A stretch of 64,000 nt of DNA from Rhea pennata (taxonomy: Eukaryota; Chordata; Aves; Rheiformes; Rheidae), in contig NC_084666.1 in the NCBI RefSeq assembly GCF_028389875.1, positions 62,318,422 through 62,382,421 on the forward strand, written 5' to 3'. The number at the start of each line of letters is the position of its first letter. The first letter of the stretch is position 1. This document shows positions 10,157 through 42,597 of the stretch, piece by piece. Both the position numbers and the translations under genes were made by a program. A model generated the notes under the pieces. That model ran no database searches, had not been told where the DNA came from, and was given only the letters and a program-made list of their open reading frames with translations.

Positions 10157-11879
10157 CTAAAGGAACAACAATAATAATTAAAAAAATACAACACAGGAAT
10201 GAACTCTAGTAAACTAAGTAACTATTACTGCAGGAAATCCTTAAGACTACACTCAAAAGTATGAATGCAAAGAGCCAAAGTCTTTTCTCATGCAACAGGA
10301 AACTTTGAGTCATTTTCCTGATGCTGGTGGCATTCCAACCAGTGTTAAACTTGCAGAAGAAAGCACTAAATCCATTTCCTGTCATCTCCTGTATGAAGTC
10401 ATGCAGAGTATTTAATTCAAAAGATAGCAAGAAGTATGTAAGTTAATTTAAGGCTACATAATCCTAGAAAAAAAAAAAGAGTACTCACACAGCTCAATAG
10501 CTACTAGTATCAAAATAATTTGATCAAAAAAGAAAGATCTAGCTCTCACACAGCACGGAAGTCTTGTAAATATGCTCTGCTTCCGGAAATGAAAGGCGAG
10601 GACGAATTACAGCAATCAGCATGTGCAGTAAATGTAATGATTGCACAATTGTGGGTTTTCCAGAAGAAGGCAAAGCATTTTTGTGTGAACATATGTGCCC
10701 AGCCCAGATTGCTGCAAAAAAAAAAGGGGGGCTTTCCAGTAAGTCAATAACTTTAAAGAAATGTTTTCATTATCTGTTTTTCAAAATGATTTCTCTCCAA
10801 ACAAAATTTAACCTCATTTTTCAGATGAAAAGGGAGAAAGATAGAAGAGAGCTTTTATCTGCACCCAGACTATATTGTATAAAACCAATTGCAGAAGAAA
10901 GAAATCAACAAAGAAAGAAATCAGCAAACTAGAACTAATTTCCTTGTCCATTGACCAAATAAAAGGAATCTGCAAAAGAAGTTCATTTTAACTGACATAA
11001 ACATTTTATAACCTATGTCAAAGCAGTCAGATTTTCTGTACTTTATTAAGACACAACACCTTTGTCAGGGCCAACACTACACAAATACACACGCGGGGCA
11101 CAGAGTAGTCTAGGATTAAGGTTGAGGTCAAGACTTGTATTCTACACCCTGCCTCTTGCATGGGAATCAACGTACTTATTAAGAAAAACTAAGCAGCCAA
11201 ATGAGAGGTAACGGTACATTTTTCCTACTAGACATTATTTCCTATGCAGTAATGGTGCCCCAGGACTGCCAGTTTTCAGCTCAGCTTAGATAAACAGCCA
11301 AGAAGAGATTAGGTTTTTACCAAAGGCAGTTCAATGAAACTGAACCACTGTTGCTTCAAGCAGAACAAAATAACTGAATAGTTTATTTGTGATTATAAAA
11401 CACTATGAAATAACTCTTATATTTAAAACGCTACTACTTCTATGTACTAACATTGGTTTCCGAAAGGGTTAAAGTTTTGGAGTTGGCAATTGAAATTATT
11501 TTGTCTGAGATCAGAATCTGTGAACTGGGCTCACACTCTTTGTGACAGCAGTGTGACTACTCATATAGTAAAATGCTCAGGAGCACAAGATTTTTACACA
11601 TCTATATAAATTCCAGATAGAGCTGAGACTATTTTTTCCACTTACGCATAGTAAAGAACTCTGCATTTTCAGAGAAGTCGCATAAAAATTCCCTAGCACC
11701 TGCCGAGCAGAGATCGATTTTTTATTTTTTCTCTCAAATGCGAAACTGGGCTGAATACCCCATGCAGTTTTAAGAAGTGTGAGGAAGCACGCTCTAAGGA
11801 ATACAGCAGGTGGGAATCAGGCATTGAAAATCCATGCCAGGGACATACACTGCTCCCCTGGACACCTCACATGCCAACA

Positions 11880-12720
11880 CTCGCCTCAGGGCGAGACCCC
11901 GGCGCCTTTAGCGGGGCTCACTCCCGCACGCCCAGCAACGGGCGCTCCCCGCGGGGCGACGCCGTCACCCGGGGGCCACACGCCGTGCTCCCGGCCCTCC
12001 GACCCCTGCCCTGCTCCTGCCGCACGGAGCCTCCTCCACGCGCTCTGGCCCCTGCGCCCGCCGCTCCTAACGTAGGTGGTAAGAAAACAACCCACCCGCC
12101 GCCTCGCTTTGCCCTCCCCCGGCTCGCCCGAGCGGCTCGCGGCGCTGCCCGCTGCCGTTGAAATCCGCACGTGGCTACGCCGCCTGCGCAGCTCTGGGCT
12201 CGGCGCGCGCGCGGCTACGCCACCTGCGCAGCCCTCGGCCCGGCGCGCGGCCGCCCGCCCCAACCGCCGCGCGCGGCCGTTGAGGGCCGTCAGCGACCGT
12301 TGGCCGCGCCGCGCCGCCCCCGCCCGCCCCCTGCCGCGAGTCGCGCCGCGCCCGCGGGGCTCTGACGGGCCGTTTCGCAGCGGTAGCGCCAGGCAGAGAG
12401 GGCAGGGAGCACGAAGGACGCCGGGCGCACACTCTCCGCGCACGGCGGAAGGCGGCCGGAGGCGCCGCGGCGGACCCCGCACCCCCAGCGGACAGGTGAG
12501 AGCCCGGGGACAGTCACCGTGGGCGCAGGCCGAGCCCGTGAGGCGGGGAGCGCGGCGGCCGTGAAGGGATCCCCCGCCCTCGCGCTCAGCCGCGCCTCCT
12601 CGGGAGCGGGCGTGGGCTTGTCGCGACTGCGCGTCTCCTTGTCGGCTGTGGCGTCGCGACTGTGCCAGTTTGTCACTGTCAGTTCTCAGCGATCGGCTTC
12701 CAGCGCTGGGGAAGGATGTC
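11880..12720. promoter_or_regulatory. CpG island promoter of TIFA, probably shared with ALPK1
   Basis: This block is dense in G+C and CpG within AT-rich DNA. A + strand donor GACAG|GTGAG after 12495 is a good end for TIFA exon 1. On the - strand a possible donor (GGGA|GTGAGC, exon edge 11922) could end the first exon of a divergent transcript. In mammals ALPK1 and TIFA start head to head, so a bidirectional promoter is expected. The island holds three CCGTTG (MYB-like) motifs at 12155, 12277 and 12297 and a tandem repeat with TGCGCA cores at 12173-12249. The exact start sites cannot be read from sequence. Confidence 0.75.
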
Positions 12721-15465
12721 CCGGTGGTCACTGCTCAGTTCTGGAAGATTTGAAGGCGTTCACAACTGTTTGCGCTCTGCACTTGTAACATCTTGTGGAT
12801 GGCACTGGCTTTGAGGTCAGCTGGGACTTTTCAGAAATTACTGATTTAGGTCATGGTTTTGGCATCTGAGCTCTTGTGGAAGTTTCCATTGTAATCGGCA
12901 GCATGAGAAACTGATTTTTTGCAGCTGAAATACCTCAGAGTGGCATAAAGTCATGTTCAGGAAGTCTGATTTGTGCACACAGGGGACTGGGAATGAATGA
13001 CACTTTAAGCATATATTCATGCAAAAATGGTACAATTACAACAAAGATTATTCTTTAAACAACACTAAGTTCACAGAATGCAAGCACTACAAAGTTAGGC
13101 AATGTCAGAAGTAGTTTGCCTAGAAAACACTTGTTTTCCACGTACAGCTGTGTAATGTACAGTGTATATTTAGGTGCGCATGCCTTACTGTCTGCATTAA
13201 ACACCTGACTCAGTGCACAGGACGAACCTGCTTGGGGATGAACTGAGGCTTTAAAAAGAGGCTGTTGTCTGCTGGCCTCATACGTAATATCTTACAGGCA
13301 GCAGAAGATACTCTAGTGACTGCAGCATAGAATTTCAGGAAGACAAAAAGCATAGCTATGTGCTTTAAAGCAATTATGTAACATCCTTGAAAATCCACCC
13401 ATGTTCATGGTCATTTAAAATTAAAAGTGGCCACAGAACAGATTTTCTTGGTATTCAGGTTGAAACCCCATGTTCTAATTTATGGAAACAGACAGAGCAG
13501 TCTGAACTGTAACTCGCATGTAGAAAGTTAAAATGCTTGAATAAATTGTTTGTTAGACACTTAAACAGGTTGGAGCCCTAAGGGTGTCAAGTTAGGTATC
13601 CTCATTCTTGTTTCTCCATGTCATTCATCTGTATCTAAAAAAGGGGGACAATGGTAATCCCATTCTGAACACTAATGCTTTGAAGAACTTAGATCCTCAT
13701 AGTGAAAAGCACCATAGAGTGTGAGCAAAATTAGTAATTTCCATCTCTAGAGAGTATTCCAAGAACAACCAGTTAATAAAGCTTGCACAACAAATCCAGC
13801 TGATAGAATAAGGTTGAAGTCCGCTCACTAAAACAAACTAATCTCTTTTGCACACTGCAAGAGAGGATGTTGAGAGAAGACGAGGAGGTGAGGTCATGAT
13901 CATTTGACTCAAGTGAAGATACAGGCAGTATGAGGACAATGGGCTGCAGGAGGAATGTTGATTTTTTTTTTCTTTTAACTCAAGGAAAGCTTCCTTCTCG
14001 AGATAGAATTCTTGAAGTCTTTCTCCTGTCCAGTACAATCCTTTTGTTCTCCCATACAATCTGGCAAATAGAAACTTCTTCAGGATTTAGGTGAAAGTCT
14101 GTTCAGTCCTACTTCTATAAACTTTTAAATCAGGCCTCAGCAACTGGGCTCGGAGTGCCTGAGACGGCATACGAGTAGATCTTGAATCAGTGGTCTAGGA
14201 GCTGCTGAGATTCAAGTTCAATGAGTGTTGCTGTATTTTGGAAGCAGTCTGTGAATCTTTGCCTCTCAGAAAGGCAGCATTTCCCACTGAACATGTCCTG
14301 ATGTACCATTTTTGGAAAGGTTCCTACCCCTGCTCTAATTGATACATATTACCATTTGTAAAATTTAGAAAAAAATTGAAGGAAGACAGTATTTTACATT
14401 GATGTTATTATATACAGTTGTGCACTCTGCAAATTCCTCAGAATATATTTCTTTTATTCTTGTCTGTTTTTTGCCCAGCACTGATGCACTTCAGAAATAG
14501 ATAAAGAAACTAGTGGGAGAAGAACATGTTTTTAAATCAGTATCAAATTCAGCCCAGGTCTTGAGACTGAAAACTCTTTCTGCAGACTGTTTTTGAAGTG
14601 AAATGAGCTGGTTTTCCCCTCTGAGAAAAGTTGATCTCATGTAACACATCTCAATTCCTGTAACTGGTGCAAAACAGGAAAGTGGAGAAGTAAACACAGG
14701 GTCAGGCTAAAGAGTCAATCTCTAGCTCATAAAGGTGCTACCAACTAATTGGAGTTGAGGAATGCTAGCAGAATGAGTAATGGAGACTTGTGCCACGGCA
14801 GCTTGTCTTGTAGATGATGGTTGTTCCTGAATAACCTGCAAGCAGGGAGTCTATTCATACTTTTGTCAAAAGCATAAAATTATATTTTCTAGTTTGGTTT
14901 AAAGTCAGCTCTTTAAAGTGAGAACCTGAAATTTGATGTTTCTCTAATCATCTAAGCTTGGTATAAGCCCTGTTGTAGGCTACTTAAGAAAGTAAACTAA
15001 GCTTTAGCCAAACTTGTGTCAGAAGTGTTGTTGTTAGTGTATTACAAGTCTAGAAGGAGGAGAATTCTAGGTTTCACCTAGGAAGAGGTGCACTGATACA
15101 CCATTCACTGTTTACAAACACTGATACAATTTAGCCTTTAAAAGCAAGAAGTTACAAGTTACTTATTGCAGTGATGATTCACCTAGCCATAAAACAGAAC
15201 AGATTGAATTATAAATTACTTCTTATAATGATTCACTGAACAGAGCTGGTGAGGAAGTTCAGAATCAGTGTGATGAACTCATGGAGAAGAACTCATGGGA
15301 ACTCATGGAGATCTGAAAGAAAAACATTGCGAACATCTGCACTACAGGATTCTATTTAAATGGCTACTTGTTAATAATGCAGTTTAATAAGCTTTTTCTC
15401 TGGTGAGCAACTGACAACTCGTTCTTGGGTTCCTACTGTAATTACCCTGTCTTTTCTTTCTTTAG
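12496..15465 (+). other. TIFA: TIFA first intron
   Basis: This stretch is between the candidate exon 1 donor and the next candidate exon. It is AT-rich with no conserved reading frame. A good acceptor-like tract ends near 14478 but has no matching donor. Small direct repeats of GAACTCATGG occur near 15275-15312. Confidence 0.45.
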
Positions 15466-15564
15466 ACTGTCAGTCCATTACCTTTAAATATTCAGCGTTC
15501 ATGTACAGAGCACCAGACTGCAATGCTTTCTAGTGTGTCTAATATTTTACTGGGATGCACTGAA
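15466..15564 (+). other. Candidate upstream TIFA exon, 33 open codons
   Basis: The acceptor (CTTTTCTTTCTTTAG, ending 15465) and donor (GAA|GTAAGT) are both near consensus. The 99-nt exon is open in frame 0 for exactly 33 codons (TVSPLPLNIQ... ending LLGCTE) and joins the 16134 exon in phase. An in-frame ATG at 15523 would add about 90 residues to TIFA. It could equally be an untranslated leader exon. The function of the encoded segment is unknown. Confidence 0.45.
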
Positions 15565-16133
15565 GTAAGTCAGACTTTGGAATAGAATTCAGTTCATAAG
15601 CAAGTACCTCCATGCTGCATTTGAGCAGCTCTTTAAAAGAAAACAATAATAACATTTTTTAGTCCTACTGCATTTCTGCACTAGATTGCTGGGGCTCAGA
15701 TTTTCAGATAGGCAGTGAGCCAAAAGTGAAAAAACGAGAATTGGTGACAATTCCTGCTCTAAGTCCCTCTGAAATTAGAGCTTTTGGGTTCATTTTACAC
15801 ACTGTCACATCAGTTATTTCTAGACATTGTATTTTTTATTATACAAGAGGTAAAATCTGATTAAAGATCCAACATGTTGCTTTTTACAATGTTGAAATAT
15901 TACTGCCTACAGTCAGACTGCACTTGTAAAAGTTACTTGTCTGATACCTTCTAGTCAAAGGAATACCCTATAAAACAGTGTGCACACTGTCACAGATACT
16001 ACTACTTAATGGTCTATTACAGGTCCATAGAACATTCCTGCTAAGTGACATATTTCTTCCAAAGATAAATCTACTTGTGAGATCCTTATGAAGAACTAGG
16101 TGGTAGCAATTTGCAGTCATGTATTTTTTTCAG

Positions 16134-16341
16134 AGTTCTCAAGTGCTAAGTAATGATCACAATCCATACGAGATGGCTATCAACCTCACTTTATATAGCT
16201 GGCAAGAGTCACTGCCATTTAGCGGTAGTCACCATTGTGGAATCCTTGGCAAAGCGGTCGGAAAAGATGATGGTCATGGACTGGGTTTGTTCTACTTCCA
16301 CATCTTTGTTCCAGTAGTTTCATTGTTTACTATCATTTCTT
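16134..16341 (+). other. Candidate upstream TIFA exon, open and in phase
   Basis: This 208-nt segment lies between a strong acceptor (T-run then CAG, 16131-16133) and a consensus donor (TCTT|GTAAGT at 16342). One frame is open throughout (69 codons plus 1 nt). Spliced to 16459, that frame continues through FLRTYVI directly into the TIFA ATG. It contains an ATG in strong context at 16173 (GAG ATG GCT), which would add 63 residues to TIFA, including a hydrophobic stretch (LFYFHIFVPVVSLFTIIS). If left unspliced, the frame stops at 16367. I do not recognise the sequence as a known domain. It may be a 5' UTR exon with chance coding capacity. Confidence 0.45.
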
Positions 16342-16458
16342 GTAAGTACACAGGCACTAAACAATAGCATGTAAAGTACTTTAGTGCCAGTCTGAAGTAG
16401 TACCATTTTTTTGGCATTACATTGATTCTGTGCTCTGAATTTTGCTGCTTTCCCGTAG

Positions 16459-17600
16459 TTCTGAGGACTTATGTCATCATGACCTCTTGTGAAGAAGCTG
16501 ATACTGAAGAAACAGTAACATGTCTCCACATGACTTTTTACCATCCTTGCCAAGATGACAAGAGGATGTTTCGTTGCCTGAATTTCTATAAGCGAGAACA
16601 GCTCCGGGCAGATGAAATGGCTGTGTTCGGCCGCGATCCTAATATCTGCCGATATAACTTAATGGATTCTCGTGTTTCTCGGATTCAGTTTTCTTTGCAG
16701 TTTTACAGAAAACTGAACAGCTCAGAATTTTGTTTTGAGATAAAGAACATGAGCAAGAAAACAAAGCTGACTGTGGGCCACACCGAACTGGGTTACTTGA
16801 ACAAAACTGACTTGCCATGGAAGTGCATCATTTGTTTTGGGGACTACCAGATCTTAACAGAGATACAAGAAGGAGAGTCTATGGATTATTTTGAAACTCA
16901 CTTACATTTGGCTCAAATGCCACTCTTACAAGAAAAATGCCTGCCATCACTGCAACCCATACCTGAGACTGGCACTTTCCCTTCTTTGTTTCTTTCCCAA
17001 GACAAAAGCCCAACAGAGACTGATGAAAATGAGTCATACTAGTCAGGAAAAGGAGGCTGGATCAGATTTTAAACATTTGAAACCTGCATGACTTCTGGAT
17101 CTGAAATCATGTAGTCCTTACTGCTGTTATGTCAATCCTCTTAGCCTTTGTGCTCAGGATGAGTGCACCAGAATTTCATTGCTTCAACAGAAGCAGGCTC
17201 CTGCCCCTGTCCTTTTTTGGGCATGTGTGCTGTCTGATCACCACTGTTTGCCACATCAGCATGTGGGAGACCCCAGTTTACACAGACACTTAAGTCCACA
17301 GAAGCAGATTCAATTCAAGAACCAGGCCTACATGCTCCAACTGAGCATGCCAAATGGTGTTTTAGCCCCAACATTGAGTAGCTGAGTAGGTATGTGGTAT
17401 CTTGTTACATTTGTTATATTTTGTGCTATGCTTTTGACATTAAGTTCTGATCACTATTTTTAAATCTAGATCGTAACTTTCCAGGTTTTACATCTTAGAA
17501 ACACTTTGTCAGCATCATCCTTTTTACTTACCGTTTGCATTAACTTTGCAGAATTTTCTTCTATTTTTTCAATGGATTAAAAATATTTTTGCAATTTAAC
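16459..17600 (+). other. TIFA: TIFA terminal exon with 3' UTR
   Basis: The acceptor is a T/C-rich tract ending in TAG at 16456-16458, followed by 20 nt of leader, the CDS and a 3' UTR. An ATTAAA at 17576-17581 is the first good poly(A) signal candidate after the stop at 17042; no AATAAA was seen before it. The end coordinate is an estimate. Confidence 0.6.
16479..17042 (+). CDS. TIFA: TIFA, TRAF-interacting protein with FHA domain
   Basis: The 187-residue product aligns along its length with mammalian TIFA (184 aa in human, from memory). It is a cytosolic adaptor: ALPK1, activated by bacterial ADP-heptose, phosphorylates Thr9; phospho-Thr9 binds the FHA domain of a neighbouring TIFA, and the oligomer recruits TRAF6 to activate NF-kB. 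Visible here: Thr9 in ADTEE (7-11); FHA core signatures FGR (50-52), VSR (66-68) and NMSKKT (90-95); and a C-terminal TRAF6-binding motif of type PxExxE, P178-T-E180-T-D-E183. There is about one extra residue before the FHA core and a C-terminal Tyr187 that I do not recall in human. The start is chosen because MTS..ADTEETVTC matches the family N-terminus; Kozak -3 is A. The exon is entered at a pyrimidine-rich acceptor ending at 16458. All the conventional coding sequence is in this exon, as in mammals. Confidence 0.97.
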   Translation: MTSCEEADTEETVTCLHMTFYHPCQDDKRMFRCLNFYKREQLRADEMAVFGRDPNICRYNLMDSRVSRIQFSLQFYRKLNSSEFCFEIKNMSKKTKLTVGHTELGYLNKTDLPWKCIICFGDYQILTEIQEGESMDYFETHLHLAQMPLLQEKCLPSLQPIPETGTFPSLFLSQDKSPTETDENESY

Positions 17601-40000: not shown

Positions 40001-40953
40001 TTAAAAAAGGGTATTATCCTGTAGAGTGTTAAGACAAGACTCAGCAAAAAACACATGGTAAAGCAAGTATCTTTCATATATTATGTTTTTCTTCATATCA
40101 CAGTACAAGAAACCGATACTTCGACAGCTGTCCAGCTATTTCAGCTGTTTGCATGCTCACTGTCTATACCTATGTATCAAATACTGGTAACTATATGGAA
40201 AAAAGTCAAGGTCTAGGGAATGTATCCCTTTCTCTCCTCATATGCTGCTTTTTCATGACTGTAACCTACTGTTTATTGCAAATCGAGAAAAAAAAATGTA
40301 GGTTATGTGCATTTACAAGAAATACTGACAGAAAGGTCATCCCAACTATTTCTGCCCTTTTGTAATGCAATCAGCCTTTACTGCAACAGTGTCTCTGCCT
40401 CTAATACACAAGACCATACTCCTGAAAACGTGGCGTTTTTCCATCCTTTTACAAACACAGCACCCTGCACAGATTTCCGGAAGTGGTCTGAAAATCTTCG
40501 TAAGCTTTTTCTTTTCTTTTTTTTTTTTTTTTTTGGGGGGGGGGGGGGGGGAAGAAAGGGCCCAAGGAGTCAAAATTCCCCCAGTGAAAGAACCCAAGCC
40601 GCCCTTGGAAGCGTATTACGACCCGGTGAGCAAAGCAACCGTTTAACGGTGTTTCGTCAGCTCGGGCAGCCGGCGCAGCCGCGCACACGCCCGTCTCCTC
40701 CCTCTCCCCTGCCCGCAGCCGCGCCGCCGCCGGGCTGCAGCCCGCCCGCCGGGCCGGGCCCGCTCTGTCCGCTCCACCGCCGCTACCGGCCTCCCGCGGC
40801 GGAGGGAGGAGCCGGGCGGGCCCAGCACCTCTCCGCCCCGGGGAGGGGAAAAGGGGGAGCCGCGCTCTCTGCTCACCCGCCGCCTCGCTGCAGCCGTCCC
40901 GCTTCCCTCCGCAAGAAGAGCCCGCAGCACCCCTGCGCCCAGCAGTTCCCCAT
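24798..40953 (-). CDS. AP1AR: AP1AR, AP-1 complex-associated regulatory protein (gadkin/gamma-BAR), 10 coding exons
   Basis: Ten exons join to a 301-residue protein, against 302 in human from memory. It is a peripheral membrane protein of the trans-Golgi network and endosomes that links AP-1 to kinesin-1 and restrains Arp2/3. Visible here: an N-terminal MGNC with Gly2 and clustered Cys (4, 9, 10), consistent with acylation; a conserved GSKYFRTC block (26-33); a charged helical coiled coil at about 62-140 with EEK and AAQREAARAAKQ stretches; the conserved STSGNDDSTS region; and two acidic Trp motifs, LEWEDEEG (207-214) and GLEWENDF (256-263), likely contact sites for gamma-ear or Arp2/3. Intron phases agree at every junction. 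The start is the only ATG giving MGNC; its context is good (G at -3, G at +4). The gene is tail to tail with TIFA. Confidence 0.97.
27932..28060 (-). CDS. AP1AR: AP1AR exon 9
   Basis: 129 nt encoding RLSSDATVLTPNTESSCDL to DLEWEDEE, nearly unchanged from mammals. It carries the first acidic Trp motif. Acceptor GTAG, donor GTATTT (weaker). It ends with one base of Gly214. Confidence 0.96.
28995..29068 (-). CDS. AP1AR: AP1AR exon 8
   Basis: 74 nt encoding SSVAEEDLDSFLRNTKFQ to FRSS, preceded by TTTTTACAG and ending A|GTAAGT. It matches the family block EDDFESCLRN...QYEVFRSS. Confidence 0.94.
29653..29714 (-). CDS. AP1AR: AP1AR exon 7, with tandem NAGNAG acceptor
   Basis: 62 nt encoding QHRLQRITQRTHAVNNGEYQ plus AG; donor GTAAGA. 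The acceptor is TAGCAG, so splicing 3 nt later would drop Gln126 and give a 300-residue protein. This is the most diverged exon compared with the human protein. Confidence 0.9.
32293..32365 (-). mobile_element. CR1 LINE 3' fragment (short)
   Basis: Contains the tail repeat ATCACAGAATCACAGAA followed by GGTTGGAAGGGACC and GTCCAACCTC, about 70 bp. It lies in AP1AR intron 6, and its orientation is the same as AP1AR. Confidence 0.92.
32845..32943 (-). CDS. AP1AR: AP1AR exon 6
   Basis: 99 nt, 33 codons, from LALQEEKLRIEEEALYAAQ to KKLLE, the core of the coiled coil. Acceptor CAG, donor GTGAGG. Phase 0 on both sides. Confidence 0.96.
33734..33830 (-). CDS. AP1AR: AP1AR exon 5
   Basis: 97 nt encoding RPLTEEEIADLKDRQYDSIA and on to LQSE, the start of the coiled coil. 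Acceptor TTTTAG, donor GTAAAC. It ends in phase 0. Confidence 0.95.
34727..34752 (-). CDS. AP1AR: AP1AR exon 4 (26-nt microexon)
   Basis: Encodes GESPGSSP plus two bases of the next Arg codon; acceptor AACAG, donor GTAAGA. Skipping it would shift the frame. Confidence 0.93.
35600..35626 (-). CDS. AP1AR: AP1AR exon 3 (27-nt microexon)
   Basis: Nine codons, FENLVESDE, identical to the family sequence, between CAG and GTGGGT. The exon is phase 0 on both sides, so it could be skipped without a frameshift. Confidence 0.95.
36075..36123 (-). CDS. AP1AR: AP1AR exon 2
   Basis: 49 nt between CAG and GTGAGT. It completes a Gly codon and encodes SKYFRTCSTGEHFTIE, almost the family sequence. It ends in phase 0. 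Confidence 0.95.
38018..38070. repeat. TA/TG/CA microsatellite
   Basis: TA repeats broken by TGTGTG, then CA repeats, in AP1AR intron 1. Confidence 0.95.
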
Positions 40954-41480
40954 CGCATCCTGGGCGGCGGCGGCGGGGCGCAGCGCAGCTCCTCCCTCCT
41001 TCCCGCCCGCCCCGCGCGGCGGCCGTTGGCGCCGCGCGCGCGCCCGCAGCTCGGATTCGAACGGGCCCGGCGCCGCGCGAGCCGCCCAACGGCCGCGGCA
41101 TCAACGGCCGCGAAGAGCCGTTGGAAGTGGGGGGCCGGGGAAGAAGAGAAGGGAAGGGAAGAGAGGCGGCCGCTGCCGGAGAGACGCCGAGGCCCCCGCC
41201 AGGCGCAACGCCGCATGCCCGGCGCTGGCGCCGCCCCGGCCCGCCCCTTCCCGGGCGCTGAGGGGGCGGTGGCCAAGCCCGGGCCGAGGGGGAGGTGTCC
41301 GGCCCGCCTACCTCCCCGGGCGCCCGGCCTGGGCTTGGCTGCTCCCTCTGCGAAAGAAGGAGCAATTTTTTATCGCGTTTGGCTGCAGCTGCACGACCGA
41401 GGGGGAAGGGGCTTTCCTCACCCGGCAATGGCTCCCCGCCCGGCTTCCCCTCGTTCACTCAGGTACTGTTTGCTCGGCCG
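40560..41480 (-). promoter_or_regulatory. CpG island promoter of AP1AR
   Basis: A CpG-dense block surrounds AP1AR exon 1. It holds CAACGG/CCGTTG (MYB-like) motifs at 41023, 41087, 41102 and 41118 and a palindromic pair (accgtTTaacggt type) at 40638-40650. An E2F-like TTGGCGCC overlaps the first of these. A + strand donor-like CAG|GTACTG at 41461 could end a divergent noncoding first exon. Confidence 0.85.
40877..40953 (-). CDS. AP1AR: AP1AR exon 1 (coding part)
   Basis: It encodes MGNCWAQGCCG to LQRGG (25 codons plus 2 nt), ending GGCGG|GTGAGC. The acylation signal and basic region lie here, inside the CpG island. An out-of-frame ATG sits 5 nt upstream, at 40958. Confidence 0.93.
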
Positions 41481-42597
41481 CAGAGCCGTTCACGAAAGCT
41501 CCCTTAAGCAGTAGAGACCTGGGAATGAACAAAGGTGTTAGGGCTTGGTCTAACGCAGCTCGATTCCCTCTGGGTTTGTAACGTTTCCTGTGTTCTGCAG
41601 TAACCTCCGATCCTGCTTCCGCAGGCACTGGTGGGGCATACATGCATCCTAAAATTATCATGCCATATCACGGGACTCACTCTTGCTCCTGTTTAAGCCA
41701 CCAGCTACTTACGAGACTGCACTGCTCTTGGCAGCTTGTTGGCATGTGGGCCGTTGCAGACTTGTTGGCTGACTTGTCTCTTGGCTGACCAAAGCAAGCA
41801 GATAAAGAATTGAACTAACACTACAATTCATCTCTCAGAACTGCAGTTACTGTAGGTGTTTTTCTGCCAGATGTTGTTTTTCAAGAAACTTGGAAGAACT
41901 TCCTGAAAACAGACTCTTTCAAATGTTAAAATTGCTCAGGGGTGCAAAAAAAAGAAAAAAGTCTGGCAAACTTACAAAAGGATCTTCTCGTTAAAAACTG
42001 TAAGCATGTCACTAAGGTATTTATTTCCTTCCAGGTTTAGGATAAAATGAAAAACATAGCTTTGGACAAGGTGAGGGAGACATGATTGCATTGTATTGTG
42101 CAAATGTAAACTAACAGTAGAAAAACCCTGCAAAAAACAAAGGTGAAATCTTTCAAAATGGAGAAGCAAATGTTGGTTAGGTTCTATCTGTGAAAACAGA
42201 ATGGAAAAAAGTCTACTCACTGCAAAATGATACCCTTTGCCTTGGGCAGAAGGCAGAAACATCTCATGATCAGCTATCCCCACCACCACACACCACCAGG
42301 TGTGATTTTTTTCTCTTCTTTTTTGTGATGAAGAGAAGTATGATATATTGTAAAATTGTGGATCCTGGCATATAACTGTATGTTAACAAAAATTCCTTGC
42401 TAAAAAAGAAAAAAAAAAAAGGAAAACAAAAAAACCCAAGAGCTTTGTAATTCCAAAGAATGGAAAGATCATTCAGGACACCAAACTATTTCATTCCCAG
42501 CTCCTCTAAGTCATTGGATACTTCATTGCCAAGGATATTAAATGACTAGTGTGAGTAATCTAAAAAGTAAGATCTAAAGGACAGGTGCTATCCTTAC

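Follow-up and report, generated by a model that had tools for sequence, protein, structure and literature searches.

The TIFA gene in the window analyzed here (64,000 nucleotides of Rhea pennata DNA) is preceded by two exon-like segments that could be spliced, without a stop codon, into the frame of the TIFA start. This open in-phase leader is real, but it stands at a chance level of about 5% once the candidate segments are counted, and the balance of evidence leans against an N-terminally extended TIFA. Probably, the locus is an ordinary TIFA gene, with position 12495 spliced to 16459 and a leader that is open by chance. The features on which the analysis is based are as follows.

11800–12799, no strand: CpG island (five 200-base bins, GC 0.58–0.83, CpG observed/expected 0.80–1.28)
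12376–12495, + strand: candidate TIFA exon 1, non-coding, without an ATG; 12376 is an arbitrary start
15466–15564, + strand: leader segment 1, 33 open codons, in-frame ATG at 15523; acceptor 10.7 bits, donor 7.7 bits
16134–16341, + strand: leader segment 2, 69 open codons plus 1 nt, in-frame ATG at 16173; acceptor 9.1 bits, donor 6.4 bits
16459–16478, + strand: untranslated start of the TIFA exon, 20 nt, containing an ATG at 16471; acceptor GTAG/TTCTGA
16479–17042, + strand: TIFA coding sequence, 187 aa, single exon, Thr9 conserved (phmmer and Pfam)

The name TIFA, given to the gene in the initial annotation, was confirmed by full-length homology and by the presence of an FHA domain. When the 187-aa frame at 16479–17042 (+ strand) was compared with PDB by phmmer, TIFA (6l9u) was matched over residues 1–185 with an E value of 4.3e-57, and Pfam detected the FHA domain (PF00498) at 24.4 bits, with a cut-off of 20.7. 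In the alignment to 6l9u, Met1 and Thr9 of the product starting at 16479 align with mammalian TIFA, and the ADTEETVTCL sequence around Thr9 is identical. Near the C-terminus, SPTETDENE is aligned to SPSEMDENE and, as far as sequence can tell, contains a TRAF6-binding motif; we take the C-terminal TRAF6-binding motif of TIFA to be of the Pro-x-Glu type. Since the N-terminus, including Met1, aligns with that of the mammalian protein, 16479 is most likely the main TIFA start. The role of Thr9 in TIFA is described in PMC7083832; in that study, residues 1–9 were not seen in the mouse TIFA crystal, an observation ascribed by its authors to flexibility. A DNA-level search of the bird's own genome did not find a processed TIFA copy that would reveal the true mRNA leader. 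No TIFA relatives were found in two public contig collections (12 pattern matches in one, none of them confirmed, and 0 in the other).

The donor of candidate exon 1 (CGGACAG/GTGAGA, after 12495) scored 11.35 bits and was the best of 20 donor candidates above 4 bits in the region. The initial annotation counted in favor of the leader that this donor fits the same frame. The fit itself is correct, but it carries little information as evidence, since the sequence between 12076 and 12495 is without an ATG and its last 60 codons are open in two of the three frames. The CpG island that surrounds exon 1 may be a head-to-head promoter shared by TIFA on the + strand and an alpha-kinase gene on the − strand. 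Three alpha-kinase matches were detected on this contig, all of them on the − strand and the closest some 36 kb to the left of the window; we call this gene ALPK1 on the assumption that mammalian synteny holds. A search for literature joining TIFA, ALPK1 and “bidirectional promoter” found none. The island also contains a GC-rich tandem repeat at 12166–12249 (period 40, 2.1 copies). A further GC-rich region, at 40265–41581, has long open frames in both directions and may be the promoter of the gene that follows, which, by synteny, we expect to be AP1AR.

Coordinates and frames of the two leader segments were checked, and the initial description of both as open, bounded by good splice sites and in phase with the TIFA exon proved accurate. 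Segment 1 (acceptor CTTTCTTTAG/ACTGTC, donor ACTGAA/GTAAGT) is 99 nt long and ends in phase 0, while segment 2 (acceptor TTTTTTTCAG/AGTTCT, donor TTTCTT/GTAAGT) is 208 nt long and encodes a hydrophobic part at its C-terminal end. The TIFA exon begins at 16459 after the acceptor TTTCCCGTAG/TTCTGA (7.4 bits), its ATG at 16479 shares the frame of the leader, and the joined frame runs on from 15466 without a stop until that of TIFA, which ends at 17042. The bit scores of splice sites were obtained with matrices of rounded vertebrate consensus values that are not fitted to this genome. By a simple splice score, segment 1 ranks first and segment 2 sixth among the 70 exon-like segments of the intron. 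The second-ranked segment (13751–13887) has stops in all frames, and the third-ranked (15348–15402, 55 nt) is open in one. Strong donor-like sites (9.7–11.1 bits) are also present in the TIFA intron at 13887, 15248 and 15402; these could belong to alternative first exons or be decoys.

In order to estimate how often such a leader arises by chance, we took 272 non-coding stretches of equal length from this locus, on both strands and overlapping in 500-base steps (some may hold real exons), and joined the exon-like segments of each (acceptor of at least 7 bits, donor of at least 6 bits) to the TIFA exon. To be counted, a stretch had to keep the TIFA frame open either across one segment of 207 nt or more or across two segments totalling 300 nt or more; the corresponding real values are 208 and 307. 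Comparable open leaders were obtained in 13 of the 272 stretches, a count confined to segments joined to TIFA among the genes of the window; with an acceptor of at least 9 bits required, the number was 11 of 272. In the non-coding DNA of the window, the share of positions from which a given frame stays open is 14–16% for 33 codons and about 2% for 69, so that for a segment pair fixed beforehand by splice score, the raw chance would be about 0.3% or less. The TIFA intron between 12800 and 15400 is less open (6.6% for 33 codons and 0 for 69 codons). Among 6000 dinucleotide shuffles of each segment, 13.4% stayed open for segment 1 and 3.4% for segment 2.

Codon content was assessed against length-matched, GC-restricted controls. 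Of 68 training loci, 15 were excluded, 3 because they contained stops or N and 12 because both orientations could be read; 41 of the remaining 53, those with GC below 0.50, were used. Since the training proteins consist mostly of kinase and BTB domains, amino-acid content is a biased yardstick. Total codon score and synonymous choice were both evaluated. In total codon score, segment 1 does not stand out from background, being matched or surpassed by 486 of 1026 open runs of non-coding DNA; 2 of 171 coding chunks scored as low. Its synonymous choice is unremarkable, as 162 of the 1026 non-coding runs were as high and 32% of the 171 coding chunks were no higher. Segment 2 is marginally coding-like. 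Its total score was reached by 2 of 151 non-coding runs and not exceeded by 3 of 68 coding chunks; for synonymous choice, 3 of 151 runs scored as high and 40% of the 68 chunks as low. Among 6000 of its own dinucleotide shuffles, 5.3% had as high a total score and 15.2% as high a score for synonymous choice. For both segments joined, codon scores as high were found in 2 of 22 non-coding runs and scores as low in 0 of 48 coding chunks; for the stretch that starts at the 15523 ATG and ends with segment 2, the respective numbers were 5 of 68 and 1 of 56.

The in-frame ATGs noted initially at 15523 and 16173 are present in the sequence. Translation from 15523 would give a product of 277 aa (90 additional residues), and translation from 16173, which is in the strong context originally attributed to it (G at −3 and G at +4), a product of 250 aa (63 additional residues). 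Seven out-of-frame ATGs, absent from the initial annotation, are also found in an mRNA carrying both segments, at 15501, 15555, 16153, 16267, 16270, 16276 and 16471. The number of ATGs before 16479 is one (16471) without the segments, six with segment 2 alone and nine with both. When segment 1 alone is included in the mRNA, the ATG at 15523 starts an upstream ORF of 15 codons. The ATG at 16471 is in a weak context and opens a three-codon upstream ORF (ATG TCA TCA TGA, 16471–16482) whose TGA overlaps the TIFA ATG, an arrangement that could permit termination-reinitiation at the TIFA start.

The hydrophobic stretch that the initial annotation placed in the extension does exist: LGLFYFHIFVPVVSLFTII reaches a Kyte-Doolittle maximum of 2.14 over 19 residues, although 9 of 201 non-coding open runs equalled or exceeded this value. 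Two Lys and two Asp residues precede LGLFYFHIFVPVVSLFTII, and one Arg and several Glu/Asp residues follow it. The orientation of membrane segments follows the positive-inside rule. If the stretch were an anchor, these flanking charges would therefore orient the protein with TIFA in the lumen, separated from ALPK1 and TRAF6, which would be expected to disable it. The proposal that residues ahead of Thr9 could alter activation also appears weaker than originally claimed. In TIFA-knockout cells, ADP-heptose signalling was restored by FLAG-TIFA and not by T9A, T9S, T9D or T9E, as reported in PMC9704527. Judging from the name of the construct, the FLAG in that study should be N-terminal; since FLAG-TIFA was functional, residues added before Thr9 need not change activation.

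We have searched for relatives of the leader in several collections. Neither segment had a Pfam match at E ≤ 1. Segment 2 had no relatives in PDB, and none among viral contigs, where 18 pattern matches were obtained and none was confirmed. In the bird's own genome, the 69 aa of segment 2 matched themselves and, weakly (E 1.64), one sequence with two internal stops. A DNA search of the same genome (1.27 Gb, 180 contigs) with 15300–17100, in which very common words were skipped, retrieved only the query itself. These searches gave no further copy in the genome with a meaningful score and no viral relative, and an origin of the leader from a mobile element or virus was rejected. No RNA families were matched in the window at gathering scores.

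Taken together, these data are probably best accounted for by a TIFA gene of the usual kind. Transcription would begin in the CpG island near 12.0–12.6 kb, the exon 1 donor at 12495 would be joined to the acceptor at 16459 with no exon in between, and the ATG at 16479 would be the start of the normal 187-residue adaptor, whose Thr9 is close to the N-terminus. Segments 1 and 2 would then be intronic exon-like sequence or, at most, occasional 5′ untranslated exons, without a coding function. With the 12495/16459 junction, the mRNA would have just one upstream ATG, weak in context, and should be a good messenger for TIFA. One can also imagine a minor isoform in which both segments, or 16134–16341 alone, are spliced in and translated from 15523 or 16173, resulting in 90 or 63 extra residues with a hydrophobic segment by the TIFA N-terminus and, possibly, membrane binding. 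We consider this unlikely, despite the correct splice sites, matching phases and unbroken frame, the strong start context of 16173 and the first place of segment 1 among the exon-like segments of the intron. The marginally coding-like codons of segment 2, a synonymous choice that falls within the coding range for either segment, the lesser openness of the rest of the intron compared to other local non-coding DNA, and the hydrophobic maximum also speak for such an isoform. Yet 13 of the 272 non-coding stretches do about as well, segment 1 looks non-coding by total codon score, a family match is lacking for either segment and a structure match for segment 2, the 9 non-coding open runs of 201 are equally hydrophobic, and the flanking charges would, by the positive-inside rule, put TIFA in the lumen.

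It is likewise doubtful that the segments act as alternative 5′ untranslated exons that tune TIFA output, their in-frame openness being incidental. Such a translational brake would be consistent with the nine ATGs, two of them in frame and seven not, that precede 16479 when both segments are included, as against one without them, and with the 15-codon upstream ORF created by segment 1 alone. However, with both segments present, the two in-frame ATGs would yield an extended protein rather than a simple block, and ATG counts of this size are presumably unremarkable for a leader derived from an intron. The most far-reaching idea, a second TIFA isoform of birds or of this bird lineage, made through two coding leader exons and placed at a membrane by a hydrophobic N-terminal extension of 63 or 90 residues, apart from soluble ALPK1 signalling, seems to us very improbable. 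If it were true, the membrane-placed isoform would be a TIFA decoy or a localised pool, and the extension a novel means of positioning or restraining ADP-heptose sensing (ALPK1-TIFA-TRAF6) in birds. For now, the case mainly demonstrates how easily in-phase open leaders arise, as about 1 in 20 stretches of this size yields one when joined to the TIFA start codon.

Judged by titles and the beginnings of abstracts, no report on avian TIFA or on TIFA leader isoforms was recognised among the literature matches listed. PMC7549962 used BSR-T7/5 cells and does not contain “kDa” in its main text, and the words “exon” and “isoform” occur 0 times in PMC13283784. The gene described here resembles mammalian TIFA in its full-length homology, conserved N-terminus and Thr9, FHA domain and an alpha-kinase gene nearby on the opposite strand. 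No difference from mammalian TIFA is shown, and the titles and abstract beginnings of the matches listed offered no counterpart to the upstream extension. Known N-terminally extended proteoforms made from upstream in-frame starts include the one encoded by the PTEN 5′ leader (PMC4892431) and a translational variant of Vangl2 (PMC11065751). In these cases, as at the TIFA locus, the leader shares the frame of the main ORF and offers start codons of its own, whereas the TIFA leader is known here from sequence alone. Thousands of human non-AUG extended proteoforms are reported in PMC9789052 to be without evidence of selection; unlike those, the potential starts in the TIFA leader are AUG codons.
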